Position numbers and translations under genes: made by a program | Notes under the pieces: generated by a model | Seen by the model: only the letters and a program-made list of their open reading frames with translations | What the model was told of the DNA's origin: nothing | Database searches by the model: none | Assembly: GCF_017985075.1 (NCBI RefSeq) | Contig: NZ_JAGNYF010000009.1 | Coordinates: 1 to 57,583 of the forward strand | Length of the DNA: 57,583 nucleotides | Source of the DNA: Flavobacterium sp. | GTDB taxonomy: Bacteria > Bacteroidota > Bacteroidia > Flavobacteriales > Flavobacteriaceae | Direction of reading: 5' to 3' | Shown: positions 1,057 through 57,583 of the stretch, in pieces | Position numbering within the stretch: the first letter of the stretch is position 1 | How the letters are laid out: each line of letters begins with the position of its first letter

Positions 1057-1102
1057 AGTTTCAAAGTTGCAGAGTTGCAAAGTTTCAAAGTTATAGAGTT
1101 TG
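1057..1102 (+). repeat. Period-8 CAAAGTNN repeat tract (left copy)
   Basis: About five degenerate octamers of consensus CAAAGTNN or CAGAGTNN run on the plus strand. The tract spans the last codons of the 1091-1450 gene and supplies its stop. It contains AGAGTTGCAAAGT at 1071-1083, which recurs inverted at 1518-1530 on the other side of that gene. The same unit recurs at 50996-51033, 53077-53120 and 54056-54092. Confidence 0.75.
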
Positions 1103-1494: not shown

Positions 1495-1531
1495 CTTTGC
1501 TACTCTGAAACTCTGCTACTTTGCAACTCTA
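1495..1531 (-). repeat. Period-8 CAAAGTNN repeat tract (right, inverted copy)
   Basis: This is the same octamer family as 1057-1102, here reading on the minus strand. The 13-mer ACTTTGCAACTCT at 1518-1530 is the exact complement of 1071-1083. The tract also encodes the final residues (VRVAK and stop) of the CCA-adding enzyme, so repeat and coding sequence overlap. Confidence 0.75.
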
Positions 1532-27192: not shown

Positions 27193-27297
27193 GCCCTAGC
27201 CCTGATAGGAGCGGTATCCTTTTTATTTAAGTTTCCTGAGGCACTCGAAGGTAACTTAAATAAAAAGATTTAGCGGATAGCAGGAATGGCTTCTTTT
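27193..27297 (+). ncRNA. Flavo-1-like structured intergenic element with inserted palindrome
   Basis: The left part GCCCTAGCCCTGATAGGAG and right part GATTTAGCGGATAGCAGG can pair through CCTG/CAGG and TA/TA. Inside, a perfect 14-bp stem (27220-27233 with 27253-27266) encloses CCTGAGGCACTCGAAGG (27235-27251). From memory the outer sequence resembles the abundant flavobacterial intergenic RNA motif called Flavo-1; I cannot confirm the match. The loop sequence belongs to a separate palindrome family seen again at 29887-29955. Confidence 0.5.
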
Positions 27298-43773: not shown

Positions 43774-43860
43774 TTTTTACTTTTCTCTTTTCTCTTTTCT
43801 CTTTTTACTTTTACCCTTTACCTATCACCCTTTACCTAACACCCTTCACCCTTCACCCAT
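43774..43860 (+). repeat. Pyrimidine-rich CTCTTTT and CCCTTTA heptamer tract
   Basis: The plus strand is almost purely pyrimidine with interspersed A: TTTTCTCTTTTCTCTTTT followed by CCCTTTACC and CACCCTTCACCC units of period 7. It fills the whole gap between menB and the small membrane protein gene. The heptamer matches the tracts at 53130, 54109 and, inverted, 50921. A homopurine-homopyrimidine stretch of this length could adopt triplex DNA. Confidence 0.7.
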
Positions 43861-45259: not shown

Positions 45260-46449
45260 TGAGAATACGCCTTACACTCTTATCACTTATTTTATTTACA
45301 CTTTCTTGCAAAGACAATGCATCGGAATTTTCAAAAAAAAATGGCACACAACAAGACCAAAGCGACTTTTTTGTAGCATTTAACGAATTAGATTCTGCGT
45401 ATTGCGAGAAACAAAAAAACGAAATCAGTTACCAATACAACAAATTAATTAACAAAGGTGATTTCTACGGTCAGTTTTTAGTGGCAAAAAACGGAAAAAT
45501 CTTGTTTGAAGATTATCAAGGGTTTGCTTACAAAGAAAAAGACGATAAAAACGGAAAAAATAAGCCCATTCATATCGCTTCTGTAAGTAAAGTTTTAACG
45601 GCAGCGGTTATTTTAAGAATGGTTGACCAAGAAAAAATTGGTTTAGACGATAAAGTTTCCAACTACTTAGAAGGTTTTTATCATAAAGATATTACGGTAA
45701 GAATGTTATTAAATCACCGAAGCGGCTTGCGTCATTATGGTTATTTTATTGAACGAGATGTGAAATGGGACCGTTCAAAACGCATCACCAATCAAGATAT
45801 TTTAAAGTTAATTAATTCTGGAAAAATTCATTTAGAAAGTAAACCAGGAACGCGATTTGCCTATTGCAACACCAACTATTCTTTATTAGCGCTTATTATT
45901 GAAAAGGTTTCTGGAATGCGTTATCACGAAGCGATGAACGAACTACTTTTTAAACCCTTAGGAATGAAAAACACGTTTGTATTTGACTACGAAAAACACC
46001 ACGACACCGTAAGTCAAACTTATAAATCGAATCGATTACGCCTAGCTTTTGACCATTTGGATTTGGTTTATGGCGATAAAAACATTTATTCAACAGCACG
46101 CGATTTATTAAAGTTTGATTTAGCCACGTATTCAGATAACTTTTTTAGCGAAAAACTAAAGAAAGAAATTTTTAAAGGATACAGTTACGAATCGAAAGGT
46201 GAAAAAAATTACGGATTAGGCATTCGTTTACGTGAATGGAAAGAAGCACCAACTCTAACCTATCATAACGGTTGGTGGCACGGAAATACCTCATCGTATA
46301 TTACTCAAAAAACAGATACATTAACCATTATTGCATTGTCAAATAAAATGACTTACAACACCTATAAAACTAAAAAGTTTATTGCGTTATTTAACCCTAA
46401 ATATCCTGTAAAACTGGATAATAATGATGTAGGTGGTGCTAATGAATAA
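45259..46449 (+). CDS. Serine hydrolase lipoprotein, class C beta-lactamase fold
   Basis: The 396-residue protein has lipobox LFTLSC (C17). Catalytic motifs are SVSK (108-111) in HIASVSKVLTAA, YCN in FAYCNTNYSLLALI and HNG in YHNGWWHGNTSS. The fold includes penicillin-binding proteins, esterases and D-aminopeptidases; a true beta-lactamase is unlikely given the lipoprotein location. It is coupled to the PH-like membrane protein gene and converges on the DUF3570 gene with a three-base gap. Confidence 0.85.
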   Translation: MRIRLTLLSLILFTLSCKDNASEFSKKNGTQQDQSDFFVAFNELDSAYCEKQKNEISYQYNKLINKGDFYGQFLVAKNGKILFEDYQGFAYKEKDDKNGKNKPIHIASVSKVLTAAVILRMVDQEKIGLDDKVSNYLEGFYHKDITVRMLLNHRSGLRHYGYFIERDVKWDRSKRITNQDILKLINSGKIHLESKPGTRFAYCNTNYSLLALIIEKVSGMRYHEAMNELLFKPLGMKNTFVFDYEKHHDTVSQTYKSNRLRLAFDHLDLVYGDKNIYSTARDLLKFDLATYSDNFFSEKLKKEIFKGYSYESKGEKNYGLGIRLREWKEAPTLTYHNGWWHGNTSSYITQKTDTLTIIALSNKMTYNTYKTKKFIALFNPKYPVKLDNNDVGGANE

Positions 46450-46452
46450 GAG

Positions 46453-47898
46453 TTACTGATTTACAAATTTGAATGCAATCGTAGCAATATTCGCATTTAA
46501 ACCATCAGTTCTTTCGTAATGATTGAATCTGAAATCGATATTTTTTAAACCAAATTTCCAAATTTTTGCAGCGGTAAATATGTCGGTATACGTAAATCCG
46601 GCGCCATATTGGTTGGCGTTAAATGTAGACAAATCAAAATCTGAAGTATAGAATTTTTCCGTAGAAAGATGTTGTTCAAAAGGCGCAAAATATTTAGACT
46701 GCATCTGCGTATAATATCTATACATTGGAAAAATGGTAAATTTATCAGATACTTTCACAGGAATTTCAATAGAAGCCGTATGTGCTTGTATGTCCCAATC
46801 GTCAGAATAATAGCGGTAATACGTTCTAAAAACGACTCTCTCGTTTAAGTAATAATTTAATCGTGCGCCAATTGGCAATTTAAAACGAGTGTTTGGTAAG
46901 CGTTCAATATCATCCGCTAAGCGATACACATCACTATTTGAAGGGTTTTCGTAATTAGAAATACTTGCAGAATTTCCAATATAATAATTGGGTTTATCTG
47001 CAAAATAGATTCTATGATACGGTGTGGATAACATTCCATCTTGTTTTAAGATATCGAAAAATACAGAAAACTGAAACTTTTTGGTTAACACTTGAGAGAA
47101 ACCAACAGAGGCCGAATACGAGTTTCTGCCCACAGCACTCCATTTTGAGAACGTATTTGGTAAATAAGCCGAAGAAATAGCACCACTTTGATTGTATACC
47201 GTTACACCAGCAAAATAACCATTACTCTGAAAACCAGAGCCAAATTTACCAAACTCACTCAATTCGGTTGGATAAATTGGGCGCCATTGGTCTAAATAAG
47301 CATTGACTTTTAAGGACACTTCTGAATTTTTATCATTAAATAATTTCGAAATGCCTCCTCCAAAACCTATTGAAGTATAATCATATTCATTTGAAAACGC
47401 CACATCGGCATTCCAAATTAAATTTCTATCGTCGCTACTATGACTGTAATTGGCATTTATGGCAGCCAACACATCACTTTGTGACGCACCAGAAGACGCT
47501 TGCCAAGGCGAACCTGTCGGACCTGCAGCCAATGCAGCAGCAGCTACTCTATCGTCATCATCTCCACCACCACCTCTGGAAGCCCCTGAAGCATTAAACG
47601 GATTGATATTACTTGACGAAGCTGATGTATATGCAGAAATTCCGCTATCAATTGTCAAAACATCATCGTCATTTAAAGGCATAGCAATTACTATGTTGGC
47701 TGTAGCATTGGTTAATTTTTCAGAACCAATTCCACCACCTACAGAAGAATGCGTACCATCTTGTTTGTAATAACTGGATAAAAAATCGATTTCAGTAGTT
47801 TCTAAAACACGTTTTTTAAATACAATGGTGGTGTCTTTTTTTTGTTGCGCGTACGATAAAAACGTACATAAACTTAGGGCGAATACTATTTTTTTCAT
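46453..47898 (-). CDS. DUF3570 outer-membrane barrel-like protein
   Basis: The 481-residue protein has a signal peptide (IVFALSLCTFLSYAQ). The region from about 60 onwards is a series of amphipathic strands with aromatic ends (YTSASSSNIN, VAFSNEYDYTSIGFGGGISK, YYRYYSDDWDIQ), ending TIAFKFVNQ as in outer-membrane barrels. A flexible glycine/aspartate-rich segment (RGGGGDDDDR, 108-117) is flanked by two SGAS tetrads (104-107, 136-139). It is the last gene of a thioredoxin, ApbE, DUF4266, DUF3570 operon, a combination suggesting a flavin- or redox-linked envelope system. The barrel's role is unknown. Confidence 0.85.
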   Translation of the reverse strand: MKKIVFALSLCTFLSYAQQKKDTTIVFKKRVLETTEIDFLSSYYKQDGTHSSVGGGIGSEKLTNATANIVIAMPLNDDDVLTIDSGISAYTSASSSNINPFNASGASRGGGGDDDDRVAAAALAAGPTGSPWQASSGASQSDVLAAINANYSHSSDDRNLIWNADVAFSNEYDYTSIGFGGGISKLFNDKNSEVSLKVNAYLDQWRPIYPTELSEFGKFGSGFQSNGYFAGVTVYNQSGAISSAYLPNTFSKWSAVGRNSYSASVGFSQVLTKKFQFSVFFDILKQDGMLSTPYHRIYFADKPNYYIGNSASISNYENPSNSDVYRLADDIERLPNTRFKLPIGARLNYYLNERVVFRTYYRYYSDDWDIQAHTASIEIPVKVSDKFTIFPMYRYYTQMQSKYFAPFEQHLSTEKFYTSDFDLSTFNANQYGAGFTYTDIFTAAKIWKFGLKNIDFRFNHYERTDGLNANIATIAFKFVNQ

Positions 47899-47907
47899 CT
47901 TTATAAA

Positions 47908-48117
47908 TTAATTACAACCGCAACCACCACCCGATTTTCCACCATTGGCACCAGCAGCCGCTTCACGATACACTTGAAAAGACGTTTCGTAACGTTCTGA
48001 AGCACGAGCAGATAATTTCATATCTACATCGTTGATTTTTTCTTTTTCGTACTCTTTAACCGAATTACACGATTGGAAAACCAAAAGCAACACGGATAAT
48101 TTTAAAAACTTTCTCAT
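47908..48117 (-). CDS. DUF4266 small lipoprotein
   Basis: The 69-residue protein has a short signal peptide with lipobox LVFQSC (C17). It continues KEYEKEKINDVDMKLSARAS and ends in a glycine/cysteine tail GGKSGGGCGCN. The DUF4266 family is found next to DUF3570 and ApbE genes. The CGC tail could bind metal or form a disulfide, substrate for the thioredoxin-like protein two genes upstream. That is inference. It is nine bases upstream of the DUF3570 gene. Confidence 0.82.
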   Translation of the reverse strand: MRKFLKLSVLLLVFQSCNSVKEYEKEKINDVDMKLSARASERYETSFQVYREAAAGANGGKSGGGCGCN

Positions 48118-48152
48118 ATTTTATTTATTTACAAACCAATTAAGGAGTGCTT

Positions 48153-49136
48153 TTATTCATATTTTTTAATGTCAATTCCTTTTGAAGTAAAAATTTTACC
48201 TTTATCATCCACAATGATGCACTCAATGCCTTTTAGTTGATTGATTAAGTTCAACCCTACCTCTACACCCAACACAAAAACACCCGTTGCCAACGCATCT
48301 GCAATTTCTGTTTGTTTAGCAAAAACCGAAACACTTACTATGCCAGTTGCTGGATATCCAGAACGCGGGTCAATTATGTGCGAATAGCGAATGTTGTTAA
48401 ACGTGACATATTTTTCATAACTCCCAGACGTCTCCACAGCGCTATCAACCAACGGAAACGTAGCGAATACTTTATTTTTATTTACTGGATTAACAATACC
48501 AACCGTCCAAGGTTTGCCATCGATTTGACTTCCCCAAGTGTTTATATCTCCCGAAACATTTACAATTCCGGCAGTACAACCTTTGGCTTGAAGTACTTCT
48601 TTCACTTTATCGGCAATGTATCCCTGACCAATACCGCCAAGTCCTAATTTCATACCTGAATTTTTAAGGAAAATCGTTTTGTTTTTGGTGTCTAAAATTA
48701 TTTTTTCGTAACCAATTCGTTCTACTGATTTTTTAATAGCTTCAGGCGAAGGCATTTCTTTCATCGAACCATCAAATTTCCAAATCTTATCCATTGACGC
48801 ATACGAAATATCGAAAGCACCATCGGTTAATTTTGATATTTTAAGGGCACGTTCTACCAATTCAAATACTTCATTATTGACTTTAATAGGCACTATACCT
48901 GCATTCTGATTTACTTGTGAAATTTGTGTAGTCGGAATCCAATCTGAAATTAAATTTTCAATTCGTTTTACTTCATTTACAGCTAAATTGACATAAAAAT
49001 TTCCTTCAACCGTGTCTTTGGCTACTACAGTAATTTCAAACGGACTGCCCAATAAAGCATACTTTTTCTTGTGCGTAATTTGAGAAAAAGCAGTTAAGGT
49101 TCCTAAAAACAAAAAGAGACAAAATTTCAATTTCAT
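48153..49136 (-). CDS. apbE: FAD:protein FMN transferase (ApbE family)
   Basis: The 327-residue secreted enzyme has a signal peptide (FCLFLFLGTLTAFSQ) and the ApbE blocks GAFDISYASMDKIWKF, KLGLGGIGQGYIADKV, GIVNVSGDINTWG, ETSGSYEKY, YSHIIDPRSGYPA and ADALATGVFVLG. ApbE transfers FMN from FAD to a Ser or Thr in substrate proteins outside the cytoplasm. Its substrate is not obvious among classic FMN-binding domains here, so the adjacent DUF3570 protein with SGAS tetrads is a candidate. It overlaps the thioredoxin gene by one base. Confidence 0.92.
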   Translation of the reverse strand: MKLKFCLFLFLGTLTAFSQITHKKKYALLGSPFEITVVAKDTVEGNFYVNLAVNEVKRIENLISDWIPTTQISQVNQNAGIVPIKVNNEVFELVERALKISKLTDGAFDISYASMDKIWKFDGSMKEMPSPEAIKKSVERIGYEKIILDTKNKTIFLKNSGMKLGLGGIGQGYIADKVKEVLQAKGCTAGIVNVSGDINTWGSQIDGKPWTVGIVNPVNKNKVFATFPLVDSAVETSGSYEKYVTFNNIRYSHIIDPRSGYPATGIVSVSVFAKQTEIADALATGVFVLGVEVGLNLINQLKGIECIIVDDKGKIFTSKGIDIKKYE

Positions 49137-49570
49137 TAGTTTACCATCGCATTTAAAAGTTGCACATATTCTGTAGGTGATACGTTCTTATAGCCAGTAA
49201 TTCCTAATACTTTACCCGTAGCGTCTAACAAAACTACCAATGGGAAATTACCTTCTTTATTATATTTTTCGGCTAATTTTTTATTACTTTCTGTTTGTGC
49301 TTCAGATAAAGCATTTCCCTTTTTCTTTGGAAAATCTGCTTTTAACAATACCCATTTCTTTTCTGCTTCAGTTTTAAAAACATCAGATTGAAAAATAGTC
49401 CTGTCTAATTTTATACAAGGTGCACACCAATCAGATCCAGAAAAAACCAAAAGAATATTTTTATTCGAAGATATTGCTTCCGTTTTGGCCGAATCTAAAG
49501 AAGTAGTCCAATTTTGAGCAAAAGACAGTGAAGCTGAAAATATAAATGCAAATAGAATTATTTTTTTCAT
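49136..49570 (-). CDS. Periplasmic thioredoxin-fold protein
   Basis: The 144-residue protein has a signal peptide (IILFAFIFSASLSFAQ) and the redox motif CAPC in FSGSDWCAPCIKLDR near 45-59. EGNFPLVVLLDATGKVLG carries the cis-proline region. The DsbD-gamma/thioredoxin-7 type fold suggests reduction or oxidation of envelope thiols. It is the first gene of the ApbE/DUF4266/DUF3570 operon, and the cysteine tail of the DUF4266 lipoprotein is a plausible partner. A TATATTTG element lies 37 bases upstream on its strand (49607-49614). Confidence 0.87.
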   Translation of the reverse strand: MKKIILFAFIFSASLSFAQNWTTSLDSAKTEAISSNKNILLVFSGSDWCAPCIKLDRTIFQSDVFKTEAEKKWVLLKADFPKKKGNALSEAQTESNKKLAEKYNKEGNFPLVVLLDATGKVLGITGYKNVSPTEYVQLLNAMVN

Positions 49571-49743
49571 GGCTTTTAAGAATTGTTTAATGTTTTATTT
49601 ATAACACAAATATACGAATTTTATTGTTTGACTGCTTTATTCTAATGTTATTTTTTTGTTATGTAATTACATTATAAAAGGGTTCAGAAAATTAATAAGC
49701 AAGAATAAAAGAAAATTTGCTAATTTTGCAAAAAAAAGAAACC

Positions 49744-50331
49744 ATGATTTTACCTATATACGGATATGGCGAAGCTGTTTTAAGAAAAGTTTGCGAAGAC
49801 ATTACACCAGAGTATCCAAACTTAACCGAAACATTAAGCAATATGTATGAAACCATGTACAATGCTTATGGCGTAGGTTTGGCAGCACCTCAAGTAGGTT
49901 TAGCCATCCGATTATTTGTAATTGACACTACCCCATTTGCAGATAGCGACGAAGTTACTAAAGAGGAATCCGAACAATTAAAAGGGTTCAAACAAACGTT
50001 TATTAATGCTAAAATTTTAAAAGAAGAAGGTGAAATTTGGGCATTTAATGAAGGTTGTTTAAGTATTCCCGATGTGCGTGAAGACGTTTTGCGTCATGAA
50101 ACCGTTACTATTGAATATTACGATGAAAACTTCGAAAAAAAAACAGAAGTTTACAACGGATTGATTGCTAGAGTAATACAACACGAATACGATCATATTG
50201 AAGGCGTTTTATTTACCGACCATTTATCTATGTTAAAGAAAAAATTAGTAGGTAAGAAACTTCAAAATATTATGGAAGGCAAAGCCAGACCCGATTATAG
50301 AATGAAATTTGCCAACTTAAAAATCAAATAA
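49744..50331 (+). CDS. def: Peptide deformylase
   Basis: The 195-residue enzyme starts at the ATG giving MILPIYGYGEAVLRK; a TTG nine codons upstream overlaps the promoter-like TAATTTTG (49721-49728). The three deformylase motifs are intact: GVGLAAPQVGL near 41-51, EGCLSIPDVRE near 108 and QHEYDHIEGVLF near 146, with the metal-binding HExxH equivalent. It removes N-formyl groups from new proteins. It is followed by the DUF5606 gene. Confidence 0.95.
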   Translation: MILPIYGYGEAVLRKVCEDITPEYPNLTETLSNMYETMYNAYGVGLAAPQVGLAIRLFVIDTTPFADSDEVTKEESEQLKGFKQTFINAKILKEEGEIWAFNEGCLSIPDVREDVLRHETVTIEYYDENFEKKTEVYNGLIARVIQHEYDHIEGVLFTDHLSMLKKKLVGKKLQNIMEGKARPDYRMKFANLKIK

Positions 50332-50372
50332 ATCGGACCTAAAAATTTTATGTTTTATTTTGGATTTTCAAA

Positions 50373-50403
50373 TTGGAAATTCATTTTTTAAAATATATAT
50401 TTG
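50373..50403 (+). promoter_or_regulatory. Promoter of the DUF5606 gene
   Basis: TTG (50373-50375) and TATATTTG (50396-50403) are spaced by 20 bases, a full consensus match. The TTG could be mistaken for a start codon; reading it as a -33 box supports the ATG at 50427. Confidence 0.7.
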
Positions 50404-50426
50404 CGACCATAAAAAAACAAAAAACT

Positions 50427-50849
50427 ATGAGTTTTCAAAAAATATTAGCCATTTCTGGAAAGCCAGGATTATACGAATTAAAAGTACAAACCCGTTCAGG
50501 ATTTGTGGCAGAATCCTTATTAGATGGTAAAAAAATTACTGTAGGATTAAGAAGTAACGTAAGTTTATTATCTGAAATTGCCGTGTTTACTTATAATGAA
50601 GAAGTAAAACTAATTGATATTTTTAAATCAATAGCTACCAAAGAAAACGGAGAAGCTACTATTTCGCACAAAGAAACAGACGACAAATTAAAAAGCTATT
50701 TCCGTGAAATTTTACCAGAATATGACGAAGACCGTGTATACACTTCGGATATTAAAAAAATATTCAATTGGTATAATATTTTACAACCTAAGGGCTATGT
50801 GACTTTAGATGCTTTAAATGCAGAAGTAAAAGAAGAAACCGCTGAATAA
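50427..50849 (+). CDS. DUF5606 domain protein
   Basis: The 140-residue protein begins MSFQKILAISGKPGLYELKV, continues with VGLRSNVSLLSEIAVFTYNE and ends with a helix-rich part including YDEDRVYTSDIKKIFNWYNI and YVTLDALNAE. It is conserved in Bacteroidetes, usually beside def and mazG, and uncharacterised. Its location between def and mazG hints at a housekeeping role in translation or nucleotide quality control. A terminator follows. Confidence 0.82.
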   Translation: MSFQKILAISGKPGLYELKVQTRSGFVAESLLDGKKITVGLRSNVSLLSEIAVFTYNEEVKLIDIFKSIATKENGEATISHKETDDKLKSYFREILPEYDEDRVYTSDIKKIFNWYNILQPKGYVTLDALNAEVKEETAE

Positions 50850-50873
50850 GCTTTTTCCATAAAGAAATATAGT

Positions 50874-50909
50874 ATATCCCATTCTTAATTTAGTTTGGGA
50901 TATTTTTTT
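50874..50909 (+). terminator. Terminator after the DUF5606 gene
   Basis: Stem ATATCCCA / TGGGATAT (50874-50881, 50896-50903) with a 14-base loop is followed by TTTTTTT. The repeat tract that opens the accessory region starts 12 bases later. Confidence 0.75.
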
Positions 50910-50920
50910 ATCTTTGACAC

Positions 50921-51129
50921 AAGGGTTTTGGGTATTGGGTAAAGGGTGAAGGGTTAAGAGATAAGTATAAGGCATAAGTCTAAGGTCGAAAGTCAATACT
51001 TTGAAACTTTGCCACTCTGCAACTTTGATACTATAACAAGTCTAAAACTCTAACAATCTAAAAGCTAATCGCTAAAAGCTGAAAGCCATTAAATTTTGAA
51101 TAACCAACAACGAATTTTGAATTTTGAAA
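50921..51129 (-). repeat. Composite repeat tract E (inverted relative to tracts G and H)
   Basis: From the plus strand: GGGTAAAGGGTGAAGGG (complement of the CCCTTTA heptamer), the 13-mer TAAGGCATAAGTC (50968-50980), CTTTGCCACTCTGCAACTTTG (complement of the CAAAGTNN octamer), then TCTAAAACTCTAACAATCTA and finally GAATTTTGAATTTTGAAA. The order and 13-mer match tract H at 54056-54108 in reverse. It fills the gap between the DUF5606 gene and mazG. Confidence 0.75.
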
Positions 51130-51136
51130 TAAAAGA

Positions 51137-51910
51137 ATGAACACAAGAGCCCAACAACTACAAGCCTTTGAAAGATTACTGGATATTATGGACGATTTAC
51201 GTGAGAAATGTCCGTGGGATAAAAAGCAAACGTTAGAAAGCTTGCGTCATCTTACCATAGAAGAAACCTATGAATTAGGTGATGCTATTTTAGATAATGA
51301 TTTACCTGAAATTAAAAAAGAACTGGGCGATTTGTTACTACATATTGTGTTTTATTCCAAAATAGGTTCAGAAACAAATGATTTTGACATTGCCGATGTG
51401 GCCAATAGCATTTGCGAGAAGTTAATAGACCGTCATCCACATATTTATGGCGATGTGGTGGTGGAAAACGAAGAACAAGTAAAACAAAATTGGGAAAAGC
51501 TGAAATTAAAAGAAGGCAGAACTTCGGTGTTAGAAGGTGTACCAAAAAGTTTACCAGCATTAGTAAAAGCCAGCAGAATTCAAGATAAAGTTAAAGGTGT
51601 AGGATTCGATTGGGAAGAAACGCAACAGGTTTGGGAAAAAGTAGAAGAAGAAATTGCCGAATTACAAGTGGAAATAGCCGCTAACAATCAAGATAAAATG
51701 GAAGCCGAATTTGGCGATGTGTTATTCTCTATGATTAACTACGCCCGCTTTTTAAACATCAACCCAGAAGACGCCTTAGAACGCACCAACAAAAAATTCA
51801 TCAAACGCTTTAAGTATTTAGAAAGTAAAGCCAGCACATTAGGCAAATCGTTATCTGATATGACATTAGCCGAAATGGATGTGTTTTGGGAGGAAGCGAA
51901 GAGGGTTTAA
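51137..51910 (+). CDS. mazG: Nucleoside triphosphate pyrophosphohydrolase MazG
   Basis: The 257-residue protein has two MazG helical domains. The N-terminal one shows LREKCPWDKKQTLESLRHL near 16-34, EETYELGDAI and KKELGDLLLHIVFYSKI, the ExxE..ExxD metal set. The C-terminal one shows EEEIAELQVEI and EAEFGDVLFSMINYARFL. MazG hydrolyses NTPs and dNTPs to monophosphates and can lower ppGpp during stress. It sits between two composite repeat tracts. Confidence 0.93.
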   Translation: MNTRAQQLQAFERLLDIMDDLREKCPWDKKQTLESLRHLTIEETYELGDAILDNDLPEIKKELGDLLLHIVFYSKIGSETNDFDIADVANSICEKLIDRHPHIYGDVVVENEEQVKQNWEKLKLKEGRTSVLEGVPKSLPALVKASRIQDKVKGVGFDWEETQQVWEKVEEEIAELQVEIAANNQDKMEAEFGDVLFSMINYARFLNINPEDALERTNKKFIKRFKYLESKASTLGKSLSDMTLAEMDVFWEEAKRV

Positions 51911-52030
51911 GGTGAAGGGTTAAAGGTTAAGGGAAAAATCTAAGAAGTCTAACAATCTAACAATCTAAGAAGTCTAATATGTCTAATATGTCTAAAAATC
52001 TAAGAAATCTAATCCGTCTAAGTAGTCTAT
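51905..52030 (+). repeat. Composite repeat tract F, running into a signal-peptide coding region
   Basis: A short inverted CCCTTTA part (AAGGTGAAGGGTTAAAGG) is followed by about ten TCTAA units spaced 8-9 bases: TCTAAGAAG, TCTAACAA, TCTAATATG and so on. The last five units lie inside the first codons of the serine hydrolase gene at 51979 and encode its basic N-terminus. Confidence 0.8.
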
Positions 52031-53076
52031 TATTAAGTATTCTATTCATTTCTTGTGGTGAAACGGATTGTGGTTGTACTACTCCACCAGTGGAACCTAT
52101 GTATTTTCCACCAAATTCTGGTACTACTTGGGAAACCATAGCACCTGAAAATTTAGGTTGGAATACGGCAAACATTGCGGCACTTGACGCCTACCTAATT
52201 GAAAAACACTCAAAAAGTTTTATTGTTTTACACAACGGAAAAATAGTTTTAGAAAAGTATTACAACGGACATACCGCTACTACCCCATGGTATTGGGCAA
52301 GTGCAGGAAAAACGCTAACTTCAACCGTTACAGGGATTGCAGCGCAAGAAGGACTAATAAATATTAACAACAAAGTATCCGATTATATAGGAACGGGCTG
52401 GACGAGTGCGCCTTTAGCTAAGGAAAACTTAATTACTTGTAAGAATTTATTAAGTATGAATTCTGGGTTAAACGATGCTTTAGGCGATACAGTAACACCC
52501 AATAATTTACAATACGTAGCCGATGCAGGCACCCGATGGGCGTATCATAATGTATATGTAAAATTACAAGATGTGGTAGCCACTGCCACCAATCAAACGT
52601 GGGACACTTACTTTAACAACAAATTACGCAACCCAATTGGGATGACTGGCGCTTGGGTTACCGATCCAACGGCATTAAGTGTCTATTGGAGTAACAGCCG
52701 AAGTATGGCGCGTTTTGGCTTACTGGCTTTAGCCAATGGCAATTGGAATGGTACACAAATTATCAATTCAAATTATATGAATGCTGCCACAACAACTTCT
52801 CAACAAATTAATTTAGCGTACGGCTATTTGTGGTGGCTAAACGGAAAAAGCAGCTTTCATCTTCCTCAAAGTCAATTGCAATTTAATGGTAGTATCATCA
52901 CTACCGCCCCAGCAGATATGTATTGCGCATTAGGCATGGACGACCAAAAAATATACATAGTGCCTAGCCGCAAATTAGTTATTATCAGAATGGGCAATGC
53001 CGCAGACAACAGTAATCCAGCCTTATCTGATTTTGACGAAGTACTTTGGCAGAAGATTAATGCGGTGGTGAATTAG
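51979..53076 (+). CDS. Serine hydrolase lipoprotein, class C beta-lactamase fold
   Basis: The 365-residue protein has lipobox LFISC (C26) and a second pair of cysteines soon after (CGC). SAGK (108-111) in YWASAGKTLTS is the SxxK pair, WAYHNVYVKL gives YxN, and CALGMDDQKIYIVP takes the place of the KTG/HxG motif. It is an envelope esterase- or PBP-like enzyme. The N-terminal MSNMSKNLRNLIRLSS is written in the TCTAA repeat. An in-frame ATG within the repeat makes the exact start uncertain by four codons. It is only loosely similar to the 45259 enzyme. Confidence 0.85.
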   Translation: MSNMSKNLRNLIRLSSLLLSILFISCGETDCGCTTPPVEPMYFPPNSGTTWETIAPENLGWNTANIAALDAYLIEKHSKSFIVLHNGKIVLEKYYNGHTATTPWYWASAGKTLTSTVTGIAAQEGLININNKVSDYIGTGWTSAPLAKENLITCKNLLSMNSGLNDALGDTVTPNNLQYVADAGTRWAYHNVYVKLQDVVATATNQTWDTYFNNKLRNPIGMTGAWVTDPTALSVYWSNSRSMARFGLLALANGNWNGTQIINSNYMNAATTTSQQINLAYGYLWWLNGKSSFHLPQSQLQFNGSIITTAPADMYCALGMDDQKIYIVPSRKLVIIRMGNAADNSNPALSDFDEVLWQKINAVVN

Positions 53077-53171
53077 AGTTTCTGAGTGGCAAAGTAGCAA
53101 AGTGGCAAAGTGGCAAAGTATAGACTAACACCCTTTACCCTTTACCCTTTACCCTTCACCCAATACCCTTT
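53077..53171 (+). repeat. Composite repeat tract G (CAAAGTNN then CCCTTTA)
   Basis: Directly after the serine hydrolase stop come four octamers (GAGTGG, CAAAGTAG, CAAAGTGG, CAAAGTGG), the linker TATAGACTAA and four to five heptamers (CCCTTTA, CCCTTTA, CCCTTTA, CCCTTCA, CCCAATA). It ends at the hairpin box at 53172. The gap to the next gene (53077-53399) otherwise holds only AT-rich sequence and the toxin promoter. Confidence 0.8.
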
Positions 53172-53189
53172 TGTCGGAATCATTCTACA
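53172..53189 (+). repeat. Hairpin box, copy 1
   Basis: TGTCGGAATCATTCTACA is partly self-complementary (TGT.GGA / TTC.ACA). Near-identical boxes follow the heptamer tracts at 54180 and 55137. Function is unknown; a recombination or protein-binding site is possible. Confidence 0.6.
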
Positions 53190-53365
53190 AATAAGTTTGG
53201 AATTGATTTAATACATTTGATAAAACAAAACTTACGATTATCTGACCTCTACAGCTTATTGGTTATATAATGTTTTGTAATATATAAATGAGTGGTTGAA
53301 AACACCGAAAAATCAAGTAAAATAGAAACTTATCAATTTATATTGAAAATAATTGATTTAAAATG

Positions 53366-53395
53366 TTGTCCTTTAGAGCAACTTTATTAATTTTG
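53366..53395 (+). promoter_or_regulatory. Promoter of the toxin-antitoxin pair
   Basis: TTG (53366-53368) and TAATTTTG (53388-53395) are spaced by 19 bases. The expected start point falls on or next to the toxin start codon at 53400. Confidence 0.65.
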
Positions 53396-53399
53396 TATT

Positions 53400-53750
53400 T
53401 TGGATAAAGAAAAGAAAATAAGAACAGTAACCTTTTACAAAGAGTACTTTACCGAATTTTTTATAAAACAAAGAGAAAAGGTTCAAGATAAGATAACTTG
53501 GACGTTGCAATTAATTGAACATTTAGAGAAAATTCCAGAAACGTATTTAAAACATATAGAAAACACAGATGGATTATATGAAATAAGAGTGAAACAAGGA
53601 AGTGATATTTTTAGAATATTCTGTTTTTTTGACAAAGGAAAATTAATCGTTCTTGCGAATGGATTTCAAAAGAAAGAACAGAAAACACCAAAAAAAGAAA
53701 TAGAAAAAGCATTAAAAATAAAAAAAGAATATGAAAACGAAAACAAATAA
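53400..53750 (+). CDS. RelE/HigB-superfamily toxin (phage Gp49-like)
   Basis: The 116-residue protein has the RelE fold of the Gp49-like group: KIRTVTFYKEYFTEFFIKQ, KHIENTDGLYEIRVKQGSDI near 51-70, FRIFCFFDKGKLIVLANGFQ and KKEQKTPKKEIEKALKIKKEY. Such toxins cleave mRNA on the ribosome. The only start that keeps the first strand is TTG, placed about 5 bases after the -7 box, so the mRNA is probably leaderless. Toxin precedes antitoxin, the HigBA order, with a 20-base overlap. Confidence 0.87.
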   Translation: MDKEKKIRTVTFYKEYFTEFFIKQREKVQDKITWTLQLIEHLEKIPETYLKHIENTDGLYEIRVKQGSDIFRIFCFFDKGKLIVLANGFQKKEQKTPKKEIEKALKIKKEYENENK

Positions 53751-54036
53751 TTTAAAAACGCTTGCCGAATTCAAAGATGAGTTTTATGGCAAATCAGGAA
53801 CTGAAAAACGTGATAAATTAGAAAAAGGGTATGAACAGTTCAAACTTGGCGCATTAATACACGAAGCTCGAATTGAAAAAGGGTTGACTCAAGAAGAACT
53901 TGCTCATAAAAGCGGAACCACAAAATCCTATATTTCAAGAATTGAGAACAACGTAAAAGAAGTACGATTTTCCACTTTGCAAAAAATAGTAGAATTAGGA
54001 TTGGGCGGAAAATTAGAACTTGCGATAAAGTTGTAA
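53731..54036 (+). CDS. XRE-family antitoxin (HigA-like)
   Basis: The 101-residue protein begins at ATG within the toxin gene. A helix-turn-helix of Cro/C1 type covers about 43-98: LGALIHEARIEKGLTQEEL, KSGTTKSYISRIENNVKEV and FSTLQKIVELGLGGKLEL. The N-terminal 40 residues (TLAEFKDEFYGKSGTEKRDK) probably fold around the toxin. It would neutralise the upstream RelE-like protein and repress the shared promoter. Confidence 0.9.
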   Translation: MKTKTNNLKTLAEFKDEFYGKSGTEKRDKLEKGYEQFKLGALIHEARIEKGLTQEELAHKSGTTKSYISRIENNVKEVRFSTLQKIVELGLGGKLELAIKL

Positions 54037-54055
54037 ATAAAGACGCTGCAGTAAA

Positions 54056-54179
54056 GAGTTTCAAAGTGGCAGAGTAGCAAAGTGGCAAAGTATGGACTTA
54101 TGCCTTACACCCTTTACCCTTCACCCTTTACCCTTTACCCTTTACCCAACACCAAATACCAAACACCCTTCCCCCTTTT
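54056..54179 (+). repeat. Composite repeat tract H (CAAAGTNN, GACTTATGCCTTA, CCCTTTA)
   Basis: Four octamers (54059-54092) lead through GACTTATGCCTTA (54095-54107) to about nine heptamers (CCCTTTA, CCCTTCA, CCCTTTA, CCAAATA, CCAAACA, CCCTTCC). A T-run and the hairpin box at 54180 follow. The same order occurs inverted at 50921-51040. The rest of the gap to 54305 has no recognised signal apart from AT-rich sequence. Confidence 0.8.
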
Positions 54180-54197
54180 TGTCGGAAACATTCTACA
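54180..54197 (+). repeat. Hairpin box, copy 2
   Basis: TGTCGGAAACATTCTACA differs from copy 1 (53172) at one base. It sits directly after the heptamer tract, 108 bases before the next gene. Confidence 0.6.
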
Positions 54198-54304
54198 CAA
54201 AAATTTAAAGTTTATTATTTAAATTTGAAATTAGGTACAATAACGAGAACATCAGCCCTCAATGCTACCTAAAAATTTATTTAGTAACCTTAACTTTTTT
54301 AATT

Positions 54305-54784
54305 ATGCCATTTAACAATTTAGAAAACAGACATTTTACTACTGCTGAAAAAACAGCGTTAAGCACATTACTTACGCAAGTAGAGGGTGCATTGGTAAAC
54401 AAAACCGCTAACCTAACCCCAGAAGAGCGCCAAAAGTATGGTAGTGTAAACGAACAAAACAAGCTAATTATTAATAAAGTAAAAGACTTTAGAGATAATC
54501 AGCCTGCTTTATCAAGTCCAGAGGTGGATTGGGTAGAATTTTTAGCCGATTTTGATGACCGAAATTTTAAACAAAACATTATAATCCGATTGCAAACCGT
54601 TATTGATGGAATTTCAAATTCGAAAATTTTACAAGATTTTGACAATTACCAGGCATCACTAACAGACTATGATTATGCCAAATACAAATCGAACGCTAAT
54701 GCGCAGGGGTTTAGCCAAAAAGTAGCCGAAATTGGGCAGTTTTTTTCAGCAACTAATTCGAGTAGTGCAGCTAAAACCGAATAA
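54305..54784 (+). CDS. Hypothetical protein, 159 aa
   Basis: I do not recognise a characterised family, though similar short proteins occur in Bacteroidetes from memory. The sequence is mostly helical: TTAEKTALSTLLTQVEGALV, LTPEERQKYGSVNEQNKLII, VDWVEFLADFDDRNFKQNII and a YQASLTDYDYAKYKSNANAQ block, ending with a disordered serine/alanine tail. There is no signal peptide, cysteine or catalytic-looking motif. It is a single-gene unit between repeat tract H and a strong terminator. Confidence 0.65.
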   Translation: MPFNNLENRHFTTAEKTALSTLLTQVEGALVNKTANLTPEERQKYGSVNEQNKLIINKVKDFRDNQPALSSPEVDWVEFLADFDDRNFKQNIIIRLQTVIDGISNSKILQDFDNYQASLTDYDYAKYKSNANAQGFSQKVAEIGQFFSATNSSSAAKTE

Positions 54785-54810
54785 GAATAAGCAAACCCTC
54801 TTACATTTTG

Positions 54811-54844
54811 AAAACCTTTGGTGTACTGCCAAAGGTTTTTTTTG
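54811..54844 (+). terminator. Terminator after the 159-aa protein
   Basis: An 11-bp perfect stem AAAACCTTTGG / CCAAAGGTTTT (54811-54821, 54829-54839) with a 7-base loop is followed by a T-run of nine. Confidence 0.92.
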
Positions 54845-54850
54845 TTAAAT

Positions 54851-55016
54851 ACCTGAAATTTTACGTTCGAGACGTGAAATTTTACGTTATACCACCCCAA
54901 TTTTTACGTTCAGGACGTGAAATTTTACGTTATACCACCCCAATTTTTACGTTCAGGACGTGAAATTTTACGTTAGACAACCTAAATTTTCACGTTCGGA
55001 ACGTGAAATTTCAGGT
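54851..55016. repeat. Four-copy 43-bp palindromic array with terminal inverted repeats
   Basis: ACGTTC recurs at 54863, 54906, 54949 and 54992, an exact 43-base period. Each unit contains a palindrome around ACGTTC-N-GACGT; the last, CACGTTCGGAACGTG, is perfect. AAATTTT and TGAAATTTT extend the arms to about 13 bp. The spacer TTATACCACCCC is conserved between units 1 and 2. ACCTGAAATTT (54851-54861) and AAATTTCAGGT (55006-55016) form an 11-bp inverted repeat around the whole. It follows a terminator and contains no ORF. Confidence 0.85.
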
Positions 55017-55083
55017 TATCCACTATTTGTAGTAAAATTGAAGTCGCAACCTAAATAAAAGTTCTACAAAAAATAAGATACAT

Positions 55084-55136
55084 ATAACCCCAAACCCTTC
55101 ATCCTAAAACTTTTACCCATAACCCCACACCTATTT
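55084..55136 (+). repeat. Degenerate CCC-rich heptamer tract I
   Basis: ATAACCCCAAACCCTTCATCC and TTACCCATAACCCCACACC are spread-out variants of the heptamer found in tracts G and H, without the octamer module. It ends at hairpin box 3. The flanking 55017-55083 has no clear signal. The whole 635-base gap 54785-55420 contains a terminator, the 43-bp array, this tract, the box and a dyad region, but no gene. Confidence 0.55.
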
Positions 55137-55154
55137 TGTAGGAATCATTCTACA
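55137..55154 (+). repeat. Hairpin box, copy 3
   Basis: TGTAGGAATCATTCTACA forms a 7-bp stem with loop ATCA (one G-T pair). It differs from copy 1 at one base, and that change restores pairing, a sign that the hairpin itself is selected. Confidence 0.65.
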
Positions 55155-55248
55155 TTGATTTGACTTAAAGTACAAATTATAAATCATAGATTTGAAAATA
55201 GCAATACAACATAATATTACTTTGTAAAACATAAGGTTTTTGCACACA

Positions 55249-55324
55249 ATAAAACTAATGCGACTATTCGATAGGTAATGTCAATATTCGATTACTTAGT
55301 GTAAAACAAAGTAGTTAGTTTTAT
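55249..55324 (+). promoter_or_regulatory. Dyad with paired TATTCGAT repeats upstream of the 55421 gene
   Basis: ATAAAACTAA (55249-55258) and TTAGTTTTAT (55315-55324) are perfect 10-bp inverted repeats. Between them TATTCGAT occurs at 55265-55272 and 55285-55292, twenty bases apart, or about two helical turns. This looks like a regulator-binding region for the downstream gene. Confidence 0.45.
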
Positions 55325-55341
55325 GAAATATAAAATATTTG

Positions 55342-55379
55342 TCAGACATATCCATCCGAAATTGGGTAGCTATGTCTGA
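55342..55379 (+). promoter_or_regulatory. Stem-loop in the leader of the 55421 gene
   Basis: TCAGACATA (55342-55350) pairs perfectly with TATGTCTGA (55371-55379) around a 20-base loop. No T-run follows, so a leader RNA structure or operator is more likely than a terminator. Confidence 0.45.
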
Positions 55380-55420
55380 TTTTAATAGACAATATACAAG
55401 TTGAAAGTAATTTTAGAAAA

Positions 55421-56308
55421 ATGACAAAAAAAGAAGAAATCATCGATAACAAAAAACAATTAGATTGTTTTATTATTATGCCGATTGCTGACCCTGAAGG
55501 TTATGAAAAAGGACATTTTAAAAAAGTATATGAAGATATAATTAGTGTTTCTTGTGTGAATGCAGGATTTAATCCTGTAAGGGCGGATGAAGTAAAACAG
55601 ACTAATTTAATTCATTTGGATATTTTGAAAAAACTAATTGAATCACCAATGGCGGTTTGCGACCTTTCGAATAGAAATCCAAATGTTTTATTTGAACTTG
55701 GTTTAAGACAGGCTTTCGACAAACCGACTGTTTTAGTTCAAGAATGCGGAACTCCCAAAATTTTTGACATATCACCTTTACGTTATACTGAATATAGAAA
55801 AGAATTAAGTTATCGTGATGTTCTTGAAGACCAAAAAGCACTTGAAGATGCTATTGTAGCAACAAAAAAAGCAACAGATGCAGGAGAAGGAATAAATAGT
55901 TTGATAAACTTATTATCTCTATCAAGTCCTGCTTCATTAAAAGATATTGGTGAAAAAGATACTGCAAAAATGCTTCAAATTGTAATGGCTGAAATGAATG
56001 ATTTAAGAGGTGATTTCAGGAAAACATTAAGGCGATTTGACGAAAGAAATGAGTTATTACTCAGAGAAAAGGAAGAAGTTTCATTTGAGTATGATAGAGC
56101 TAGAATGGAATTTCAAGAATTAAATCACCTAATAAATAACGATGCTCCAGAACAAATTGTAAGAGATTTTTCTGATAGAATTCAGAGAAAATTATACGAA
56201 TCGATGGAACGTTCAAATAGCATAATGATAAGAAGGAAAAGTCAACAAATGCTCAAGGAAATAGATATTGAATTAAGTCGATATTATTCGAAAAATCAGA
56301 AAAAATAA
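55421..56308 (+). CDS. Nucleoside-deoxyribosyltransferase/TIR-like protein with coiled-coil C-terminus
   Basis: The 295-residue protein has an N-terminal Rossmann-like domain with CFIIMPIADPEGYEKGHF (16-33), NPVRADEV (51-58), AVCDLSNRNPNVLFELGLRQ (78-97) and KPTVLVQE (101-108). This pattern, with its NPNV-ELG motif, belongs to the nucleoside 2-deoxyribosyltransferase/TIR-like group often found in prokaryotic conflict systems. From about 180 the chain is charged and helical (MAEMNDLRGDFRKTLRRFDE, SFEYDRARMEFQELNHLI). A nucleotide-cleaving or sensing defence role is inferred. It lies 2 kb before a putative restriction-methylation gene. Confidence 0.7.
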   Translation: MTKKEEIIDNKKQLDCFIIMPIADPEGYEKGHFKKVYEDIISVSCVNAGFNPVRADEVKQTNLIHLDILKKLIESPMAVCDLSNRNPNVLFELGLRQAFDKPTVLVQECGTPKIFDISPLRYTEYRKELSYRDVLEDQKALEDAIVATKKATDAGEGINSLINLLSLSSPASLKDIGEKDTAKMLQIVMAEMNDLRGDFRKTLRRFDERNELLLREKEEVSFEYDRARMEFQELNHLINNDAPEQIVRDFSDRIQRKLYESMERSNSIMIRRKSQQMLKEIDIELSRYYSKNQKK

Positions 56309-56311
56309 AAA

Positions 56312-56345
56312 CTACCGGCAACAGCCGTTTTGCAAGCTGGGTATT
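56312..56345 (+). repeat. Short GC-richer hairpin element
   Basis: ACTACCGGCAACAGCCGTTT has the small hairpin CGGC-AACA-GCCG and stands out from the AT-rich surroundings immediately after a stop codon. It resembles generic Bacteroidetes post-gene elements from memory. It is too short to be a terminator and has no T-run directly after. Confidence 0.35.
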
Positions 56346-56423
56346 ATTACTTTGTTGAAGATTTGTACCACGCTGCACAAAATATATTAAAATTTGTATT
56401 AACAATAAATAAAAACATTTACT

Positions 56424-57221
56424 ATGTATAAGATAATATTAACTATAATACTATATTCATTTCAATATTGTGTGGGACAGAATATAGTTAAGAAAGAAAC
56501 TACGGAAACATATAAAGGTTTAAATAAATTTGGAAAAATTGAAAAAGGTGAATTAACTTTTAAGAGTACTATTTACTATGACAAAAAAGGTAATGCTATT
56601 TCTTATTTATCAAAATCAGAAAATCCCTATGATACTTATTTAAACGTTAAAGAAACTACAAAGTTTAATATTGCTAATCATCCTGTAGAAAGAAATCTTT
56701 ATAATTTAGATGGTTCATTAATTGAAAAAACCATTTTTAAATACGATAAAAACGGAAATGAAATTGAATATATTTTATATAAGAGTGATGGTAGTCTAAA
56801 TACGAAATGGACATTCATATATAATGATAAAGGTCAAAAAACAGAACATTTTAGATTTGATTCAGATGGTATACAAAAAAATGTATTCTATTATGATTCA
56901 AAAGGAAATATTGAATTAGAAAAAAGATACCAAGATGAAATTTTATTCAATTATTCTAAAAACTCATACGATGATAAAGGTTATGTAATAAAAATAGAAA
57001 CTTATAATGTTGATGATAGCTTAATTTCAACTGAGTCAATGAAGTATGATTTAAATGGAAATATAATTGAAAATATTACTGATTCATCAATTAATGATAA
57101 AATTTTTAAATATTCATACACTTATTCACAGTTTAATAAATTTGGAAAATGGACAAAAAAAATATCGTATTTAAACGATGAAATTGATAATATAGAAATT
57201 AGAAAATATGAATACTTTTAA
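56424..57221 (+). CDS. Secreted protein with YD/DGS-type sequence repeats
   Basis: The 265-residue protein has a signal peptide (KIILTIILYSFQYCVGQ). From residue 50 it consists of variants of Y-D-x-x-G-N-x-x-E with a following D-G-S unit: YDKKGNAISYL, YNLDGSLIEKTIFKYDKNGN, YKSDGSLNTKWTFIYNDKGQ, FDSDGIQKNVFYYDSKGNIE and YNVDDSLISTESMKYDLNGN. The repeats suggest a beta-solenoid or RHS-like sheet at the cell surface. There is no toxin-like C-terminal domain or T9SS signal. Function is unknown. Confidence 0.7.
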   Translation: MYKIILTIILYSFQYCVGQNIVKKETTETYKGLNKFGKIEKGELTFKSTIYYDKKGNAISYLSKSENPYDTYLNVKETTKFNIANHPVERNLYNLDGSLIEKTIFKYDKNGNEIEYILYKSDGSLNTKWTFIYNDKGQKTEHFRFDSDGIQKNVFYYDSKGNIELEKRYQDEILFNYSKNSYDDKGYVIKIETYNVDDSLISTESMKYDLNGNIIENITDSSINDKIFKYSYTYSQFNKFGKWTKKISYLNDEIDNIEIRKYEYF

Positions 57222-57457
57222 GAAAAAGTCAAAATCATATAGCACTCCCCGCTCCCACACAAAAATCCCTACAACCAGAAACTAAAAAAAAACCCACCCC
57301 TATGAAATAAAAAACAAACACGACAAAACACCCTTTTTTGCCCCCAGTACAAAAGTGCAATTCGTTTTATGTCGTCCCAAATCTACCTAATTACTAACCT
57401 AAATCTGTATATGTGATGCCTCCACTGCTGCTTGTACAGAGACGCATATGCAACCCA
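57222..57457 (+). other. Gene-free C-rich, G-poor interval
   Basis: The stretch up to the last gene is rich in C and poor in G on the plus strand: CACTCCCCGCTCCCACAC, ACCCACCCCT, ACACCC and TTTTTTGCCCCCAGT. A minus-strand frame of 64 codons (57383-57577) is the shadow of the partial gene. No tRNA-like fold, promoter or terminator can be seen with confidence. The strand bias could mark a structured RNA or an insertion remnant. Confidence 0.4.
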
Positions 57458-57583
57458 ATGAAATACAAAAACATACGAGAAGAAGAACTTAAAAACAAAG
57501 TGGGTGCCGACTGGTTCGCCACTTTTGATACTACAGAAATACTTGGTAATATCGACTTTACCGTCTTTCCAAAACAATATGAT
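57458..57583 (+). CDS. N-terminus of a large restriction/DNA-methylation enzyme (partial)
   Basis: Forty-two codons run off the window edge, starting at ATG: MKYKNIREEELKNKVGADW, FATFDTTEILGNIDFTVF and PKQYD. From memory this matches the start of giant Bacteroidetes proteins that combine an endonuclease-like N-terminus with an N6-adenine DNA methyltransferase (Eco57I-like, type IIG). The frame stays open to the edge. The assignment rests on a short segment, so it is a recognition rather than a proof. It follows a TIR-like gene, in keeping with a defence island. Confidence 0.6.
   Translation, partial: MKYKNIREEELKNKVGADWFATFDTTEILGNIDFTVFPKQYD

Follow-up and report, generated by a model that had tools for sequence, protein, structure and literature searches.

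A probable gene-turnover hotspot in Flavobacterium with an operator-like promoter box, private to its lineage, before unrelated accessory genes

Double homologous recombination at flanking core genes has been proposed as a route by which hotspots diversify independently of mobile genetic elements (PMC5635113, in the text available), and a study of the core defence hotspots of Pseudomonas aeruginosa considers as possibilities that their conserved flanks mediate homologous recombination and that regulation is coordinated (PMC10250203, in the text available). Here we analyze a 57,583-nt stretch of DNA from Flavobacterium sp. (assembly GCF_017985075.1, contig NZ_JAGNYF010000009.1, positions 1 to 57,583 of the forward strand; hereafter the window), in which a series of small accessory genes, headed by copies of an 18-nt box, follows a serine hydrolase gene near the right end. 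We read this region as a hotspot that probably swaps its cargo by homologous recombination behind a promoter operator private to the lineage, with the short word repeats in its gaps as filler. The kind of hotspot is known already; what is new is the private operator-promoter before unrelated accessory genes and the presence of two versions in one genome bin.

As in the hotspots described in the available text of PMC5635113, variable genes lie here between stable neighbours, genes are replaced and no integrase would be needed. Unlike in those hotspots, the units here are single genes or pairs, a repeated promoter head takes the place of a core gene as the left arm of the swapped unit, and two versions and one sister species are all that is seen. 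Consistent flanks and the lack of a single mobile-element type are likewise features of the P. aeruginosa hotspots, from which, on the available text of PMC10250203, this region differs in being far smaller, in having a shared promoter operator and in that the defence role of its cargo is putative. Two further kinds of system resemble it in content. Integron cassette arrays are also successions of small unrelated genes including toxin-antitoxin (TA) pairs, and in the pdif/Xer modules of Acinetobacter plasmids short repeated sites enclose genes that include TA pairs. Unlike integron sites, the box lies upstream and forms part of the promoter, and neither attC nor an integrase was seen, neither having been searched for genome-wide; unlike the pdif sites, it appears not to be dif-like and is locked to a promoter.

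The exchange of cargo is seen by comparing the window with C72, a 5,440-nt contig of the same bin. The start of C72 is identical over 127 nt to the window at 54786..54912 (+), and C72 3193-3319 is identical to the last 127 nt of the window (57457..57583, +), where a large gene starts. An exact match of 127 nt at either end would fit a bubble in an assembly graph, if the assembler had used k = 127. Where the window has a TIR-like gene (55421..56308, +; PADLOC TIR effector model, 3.2e-6) and a gene for a 265-aa protein (56424..57221, +; no family in Pfam, PADLOC or NCBIfam), C72 carries the gene of a bacterial PH (bPH) protein (bPH_1, 1.5e-51) and a gene for a 618-aa protein without family. The TIR-like protein also matches phrog_3634 (5.2e-25), of unknown function, and no Pfam family. 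Of 298 aligned positions in the two heads 25 differ, with 3 among the initial 128, and divergence rises towards the cargo; past the unrelated genes, identity is 95% over 322 columns. Part of the head consists of 43-nt tandem repeats (54851..55020, +), missing from the initial annotation of this region, of which one motif is counted three times in the window and four times in C72. Judged by sequence, then, the window and C72 are two cargoes between the same flanks. Different genes in one interval between shared flanks are the mark of a hotspot of turnover by homologous recombination, and they are found both here and in a second pair of contigs described below.

The large right-hand gene is methyltransferase-like by eye only (AAGTGNLL and NPPY, both read in C72) and has no family in Pfam, NCBIfam, PHROG or PADLOC; its PDB matches (two; Rab-1B, E 0.0075) are not credible support for any assignment. 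The 43-nt repeats hold internal inverted repeats (ACGTTC..GACGTGAAA), and relatives of their copies lie on C72 and two other contigs of the genome, C45 and C77, with none reported in the sister species G104 among the best 40 of 248 candidate matches. Just 5′ of the bPH gene in C72 lies a DUF805b RNA (L075 572-604; RF02914, 39.4 bits, above the gathering score). A short hairpin element, CAAAGTC-NCCT-NACTTTG, occurs near cargo genes in two species (L075 552, -; L076 8620, +; L127 10074, -) and is possibly another shared cargo-associated element.

The left border of the region is set by G104, a sister species within the genus at about 88% DNA identity. Its DNA aligns to the window at 87.7% over 46000-50924 and at 87.2% over 51137-53077, and the alignment ends at 53077, one base past the stop codon of the serine hydrolase (51979..53076, +; Beta-lactamase family, PF00144, 4.8e-29), the last gene that the two have in common here. 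Upstream of it, mazG (51137..51910, +; Pfam MazG, 1.6e-37) is present in 53 of the 60 genomes searched, its own included, and is syntenic in G104, as expected of a vertical neighbour rather than cargo. The repeat tract between a DUF5606-like gene (by eye) and mazG, tract E (50924..51136, -), is missing in G104 while both of its flanks align, so that mazG and the serine hydrolase appear as old neighbours and not as cassettes. The initial annotation had counted both genes among its repeat-delimited units, and this part of it has to be given up.

Beyond 53077 the best 40 of 248 candidate matches include no reported G104 match longer than 54 nt, and the accessory insertion (53077..57583, +; its right end lies beyond the window) is absent at this place in G104, where a 181-aa gene and Bcp-like and Nth-like genes (by eye) follow the serine hydrolase. 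Its first unit is a TA pair (53400..54036, +) made up of a Gp49-like (HigB-type) toxin (53400-53750, +; PF05973, 6.5e-23) and an HTH antitoxin (53731-54036, +; HTH_3, 6.3e-15). The second encodes a 159-aa protein (p159; 54305..54784, +), for which we found no match in Pfam, PADLOC, NCBIfam, PHROG or phage records, and the third is the swapped unit with the TIR-like gene. The notion of a cassette-like region, as first annotated, is upheld to the extent that different genes fill the interval in C72 and other genes follow the orthologous left flank in G104; the word repeats do not serve it as delimiters.

Each of these units is headed by the 18-nt box, at 53172..53189, 54180..54197 and 55137..55154 (all +), with spacings of 1008 and 957 nt. 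These positions, like the octamer, heptamer and 13-mer modules treated below, agree with the initial annotation. A -7 element follows boxes 1 and 2 after 22 nt (TACATTTG, 53212..53219, and TAAATTTG, 54220..54227, both +) and box 3 after 32 nt (TAGATTTG, 55187..55194, +), 10 nt more than at the 22-nt sites. We defined a strict set of nine boxes, two from G104 and seven from the genome of the window, namely six exact copies and the C72 box, which, as the allele of box 3, was kept in spite of its 2 mismatches; L007-L010 and L012-L014, places that also have 2 mismatches, were left out. At 9/9 strict sites the sequence TAnnTTTG, that of the Bacteroidetes sigma-A -7 element, lies 22 or 32 nt past the box. 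In the genome of the window the 22-nt sites are those of the TA pair, p159, C45, C77 and C18, and the 32-nt sites are those of the TIR-like gene and C72. In an alignment of the nine sites, where the seven 22-nt sites carry a 10-nt gap, the columns without variation belong to the box, the T preceding it, and the TA and TTTG of the -7 element. Within the box we observe a dyad, TGTAG-N8-CTACA with a variant TGTCG, in which 53/63 arm pairs are Watson-Crick versus 16/54 for the neighbouring centre (nine boxes, six of them distinct). In the C72 allele of box 3, positions 6 and 13 are changed together, as a pair. The box is unchanged between C18 and its G104 ortholog on C15, while the sequence just upstream has drifted (by eye), and the 10-nt shift of the two allelic sites is about one helical turn. 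The dyad, the paired change, the unchanged orthologous box and the helical-turn shift all fit a protein-binding site.

In F. psychrophilum the TAnnTTTG -7 box spans -12 to -5 (PMC9723704, in the text available), and on these positions the box is placed from about -52 to about -35, or 10 nt upstream of that, with its centre near -43.5 or -53.5. Four sites were inspected for a TTG 17-23 nt upstream of the -7 element and none has one, which would fit an activator-dependent promoter. The -7 sequence is not rare in itself, with TAnnTTTG at 330 of 322,530 positions on both strands of the DNA retrieved from this genome. In a control on 354 TAnnTTTG sites, box-like 18-mers (at least 12/18) were found at gaps of 22 or 32 nt in 9/708 positions and at 34 other gaps (10 to 45) in 10/12,036. 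Among the nine are two degenerate boxes at exactly 22 nt, both outside the strict nine, which may widen the regulon. One (C77:5170, -; 12/18) heads a Riean_0653-family gene, and the other (C61:21321, +; 13/18) lies 22 nt before TAATTTTG and heads an outer-membrane-type gene, with no promoter on the minus strand. Taken together, the box looks like an operator and not a recombination site.

The combination is private to the two species. A search of 399 genomes from this genus returned 7 sites where TAnnTTTG follows the strict box at 22 nt, 5 in the genome of the window and 2 in G104, with 0 in the reversed control; the bare box was found in 1/60 genomes, that of the window (G104 lies outside the 60). 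When one mismatch was allowed, box and promoter at 22 nt appeared in 13/150 genomes at 20 places, 12 of them outside these two genomes versus 10 matches in the reversed control, a chance level at which the box as a general motif was rejected; the only exact match among the 12 is in G073. Viral contigs have 16 bare-box loci, none with TAnnTTTG in the next 42 nt. In a wider collection of genome contigs, a pattern without the TGTC variants, in which TAnnTTTG could follow the box at 20-34 nt, returned 2 stretches, both of the G104 assembly; the window's own genome may be left out of that search. We recognised no description of the box or of the word tracts in the literature searched, which did not cover subscription papers.

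Six of the seven strict boxes in the genome of the window precede genes that we take as accessory, these being the TA, p159, TIR-like and bPH genes and the first genes at C45 and C77. The C18 box and its ortholog on C15, the second of the two G104 boxes, head a conserved stretch of about 135 nt (C18 about 31066-31250) that adjoins a purine-nucleoside-phosphorylase-like gene (by eye). Its fold (-34.9 and -32.1 kcal/mol, without shuffle comparison) shows a strong hairpin at the end, with a T-run, no reading frame was noticed in it, and we regard it as a small-RNA candidate. The other G104 box lies across the stop codon of an alpha/beta-hydrolase gene and stands before a 251-aa gene (an M50 peptidase match falls just below threshold), whose neighbours were not found in the genome of the window among the best 40 of 84 candidates. 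Since G104 keeps boxes and no DNA matching the TA pair is reported there (best 40 of 248 candidates), the TA antitoxin is unlikely to be the sole regulator acting on the box.

Turnover of cargo is also observed at other loci. In the interval between mnmD and uvrB (by eye), contig C77 (606-5481) has two tandem units. Each opens with the 3′ end of mnmD, continues with its own cargo and then repeats, and closes with the 3′ end of uvrB; 350 nt of mnmD are duplicated at 95.7%, and on the uvrB side 148 nt at 91%. The first cargo includes a Bor-like lipoprotein (4.5e-24), the second a PIN protein (3.3e-13) and the Riean_0653-family protein (9.5e-36) headed by the degenerate box. The same interval on G104 C26 holds a third cargo, a single NERD protein (1.2e-24). 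The tandem units of C77 are likely a snapshot of cargo capture. At a third locus, after tRNA-Arg, the genome of the window has a box-headed series of small genes and G104 a DUF4468 gene (1.3e-6). Behind this gene on G104 C1 the 3′ end of tRNA-Arg is repeated over 45 nt (L145 3538-3582), a scar of the integrase type.

The word repeats that first drew attention to the region are abundant in the window. Octamer triples number 11 at ≤2 mismatches (shuffles: mean 0.01, 0/100 reaching 11) and heptamer runs number 12 (mean 0.00), far in excess of shuffled sequence. The excess is more modest for the box, with 3 matches at ≤3 mismatches to a pattern built from the three window copies (mean 0.33, 1/100 reaching 3), and for the exact 13-mer GACTTATGCCTTA, with copies at 50968-50980 (-) and 54095-54107 (+) (mean 0.05 at ≤1 mismatch, 1/100 reaching 2). 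Tract G (53090..53171, +), before the TA box, has octamer, heptamer and box without the 13-mer. Tract H (54062..54179, +) and tract E share the order octamer, 13-mer, heptamer; E, which has no box, is inverted, and both this inversion and the 13-mer common to E and H are as first annotated. It had also been proposed that a heptamer tract plus box heads the TA, 159-aa and TIR-like genes at about 1-kb intervals, which is right for the spacing, but the heptamers that precede the TIR box form a degenerate run of CCC words (by eye). Words of the same kind occur beyond the 50.9-55.2 kb region as well, at 1062-1093, 1502-1525 and 43813-43858.

In the whole genome (2.28 Mb in 112 contigs, 91% complete), triple octamers at ≤1 mismatch were found 16 times, while the reversed control has 0. 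Of the 16, 8 lie on the contig of the window and 8 on six others (C2, C28, C43, C61, C62 and C108), where they sit in gaps, with neighbours that include smpB (C61), an ABC-transporter gene and a FAH-type gene (by eye). Exact octamer triples occur in 13/60 genomes, this one included, with 1 match in the reversed control. Triple heptamers at ≤1 mismatch number 5 in this genome, all within tracts G and H, and are found in 2/60 genomes, this one included; the reversed control gave 2 matches, in other genomes. The shorter heptamer run at 43813-43858 has an ortholog of different copy number beside the same gene in G104, with no cassette. At the place of tract E, G104 has about 50 nt of TCTAA words between flanks that align at 87-88%. 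In view of the octamers on six other contigs, the absence of tract E in G104 with both flanking genes kept and the orthologous 43.8-kb tract without a cassette, we rejected the word repeats as cassette borders. We conclude that the octamer and TCTAA words, and probably the heptamer words, behave as slippage-prone intergenic filler, the alternative that the initial annotation had itself allowed and that does not extend to the box. Scattering of the repeats over the genome with no link to genes, which would have told against a cassette array, is thus seen for the octamer. The box is rare, lineage-specific and mostly heads accessory genes, yet it is built into a promoter and not a junction.

Several other explanations have to be weighed against a hotspot with a private operator. 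A reading in which all repeats are functionless slippage filler and the accessory genes lie there by chance draws on the same scatter of octamers over contigs and genomes, on the missing tract E and on the altered 43.8-kb tract in G104, and suits the words well; it leaves the box unexplained, with its 7 promoter-linked sites in 399 genomes, confined to two species against a control of 0, and the box-promoter spacing speaks against it there. As an account of the whole region we consider it unlikely. Another reading is an integron-like or other site-specific cassette array with the box and repeats as recombination sites, to which the regular spacing of about 1 kb, the repeated heads and the small unrelated genes including a TA pair would be natural. 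The box lies on the 5′ side of each unit, locked to the promoter, and the two orthologous boxes before the small-RNA-like stretch in two species mark a fixed site. Among 20 distinct proteins scanned with Pfam there is no recombinase, with no genome-wide search made for recombinases or integron integrases, and Rfam gave tRNAs, Flavo-1, DUF805b and chance-level matches but no recognised cassette site, with no attC model run. We hold such an array to be very improbable.

The head made of 43-nt repeats and box might instead be a non-autonomous mobile element, similar to a miniature inverted-repeat transposable element (MITE), that lands before genes. Related copies on C94, C72, C45 and C77 and the internal inverted repeats would agree with this, but the boxes at C18 and in G104 stand without 43-nt repeats, no match was found in plasmid records, and one 41-nt repeat pattern had no exact match in viral contigs. 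Neither a target-site duplication nor a terminal inverted repeat was noticed, no dedicated search having been made, and we think a MITE-like origin quite unlikely. Finally, the box could be a diverged LexA-type SOS operator through which cargo is induced by DNA damage. The Flavobacteriaceae LexA motif is GGA-N5-TCC (PMC8565304, in the text available); 8/9 boxes have GGA-N5-TCT and 0/9 have GGA-N5-TCC, so that none carries the SOS motif itself. TA and TIR-like genes are plausible damage-response cargo, but the better-paired dyad has its centre offset by half a base, no box lies at recA, dinB or a lexA-like gene among the neighbours read, and a position near -43 suits an activator. A LexA operator is, in our judgement, highly unlikely.

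Some observations also weigh against turnover by recombination behind a shared operator. The same contig ends would arise from two strains and from one chromosome with both cargoes in tandem, as in C77, and the swap is seen for the last unit alone; for the TA and 159-aa units the evidence is their absence in G104. The right end of the insertion lies beyond the available contigs and a piece of the G104 181-aa gene was not found in the genome of the window (best 40 of 84 candidates), which together make a full empty-site comparison impossible. Several boxes share ancestry with their flanks, and the nine spacings are not nine independent events. Matches to the box at ≤2 mismatches number 14 in the genome versus 4 in the reversed control, so that weak matches are uninformative. 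The second C77 cargo head has just a degenerate box (12/18), and the gene behind the degenerate box of C61, of outer-membrane type, may not be accessory. TTAGA/TCTAA words stand at the junction in G104 as well, and filler microhomology may play a role in insertion.

Two further features lie elsewhere in the window. A 23S_rRNA_IVP four-helix-bundle gene (about 1100-1480, -; Pfam 3.6e-39) is flanked by oppositely oriented octamer tracts, at 1062-1093 (+) and 1502-1525 (-), and the octamers might here bracket an accessory gene. Rfam matches in the window are tRNAs and a Flavo-1 RNA at 27194-27291 (+; RF01705, 67 bits), while the 43-nt repeats gave below-gathering matches only, to T-box and miRNA models.

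On the hotspot reading that we favour, the region right of the serine hydrolase would be a place of gene turnover in which small accessory units, the TA pair, the 159-aa gene and then either the TIR-like and 265-aa genes or the bPH and 618-aa genes, stand beside stable neighbours. Incoming DNA with a shared flank or a repeated head would recombine through this homology and replace the cargo, at least in the last unit, whose left arm would be the head with 43-nt repeats and promoter, and whose right arm the methyltransferase-like gene. An activator could bind the box near -43.5 or -53.5, and we infer a resident regulator that would probably switch the cargo genes, together with one conserved small-RNA-like gene, via the box. 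Any gene inserted behind the head would immediately come under its terminal box and promoter, and so be both expressed and controlled. We suggest, tentatively and with more doubt than confidence, that the shared promoter head is at the same time a recombination arm for defence-like cargo and a switch that puts it under one resident regulator also controlling a conserved small RNA, the operator-promoter travelling with newcomers or being kept before them.

The entry of single genes into a hotspot and their coming under host control are seldom seen, since the stages in between do not persist. In this assembly one slot is preserved in two versions that share a promoter head beside the part that has changed, and the box may offer a handle for finding the regulator. 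Eye-catching word repeats between genes in this group can be filler and are poor pointers to cassette borders. If the head does act as both arm and switch, it would give a simple answer to how new defence-type genes are regulated from the time of their arrival.

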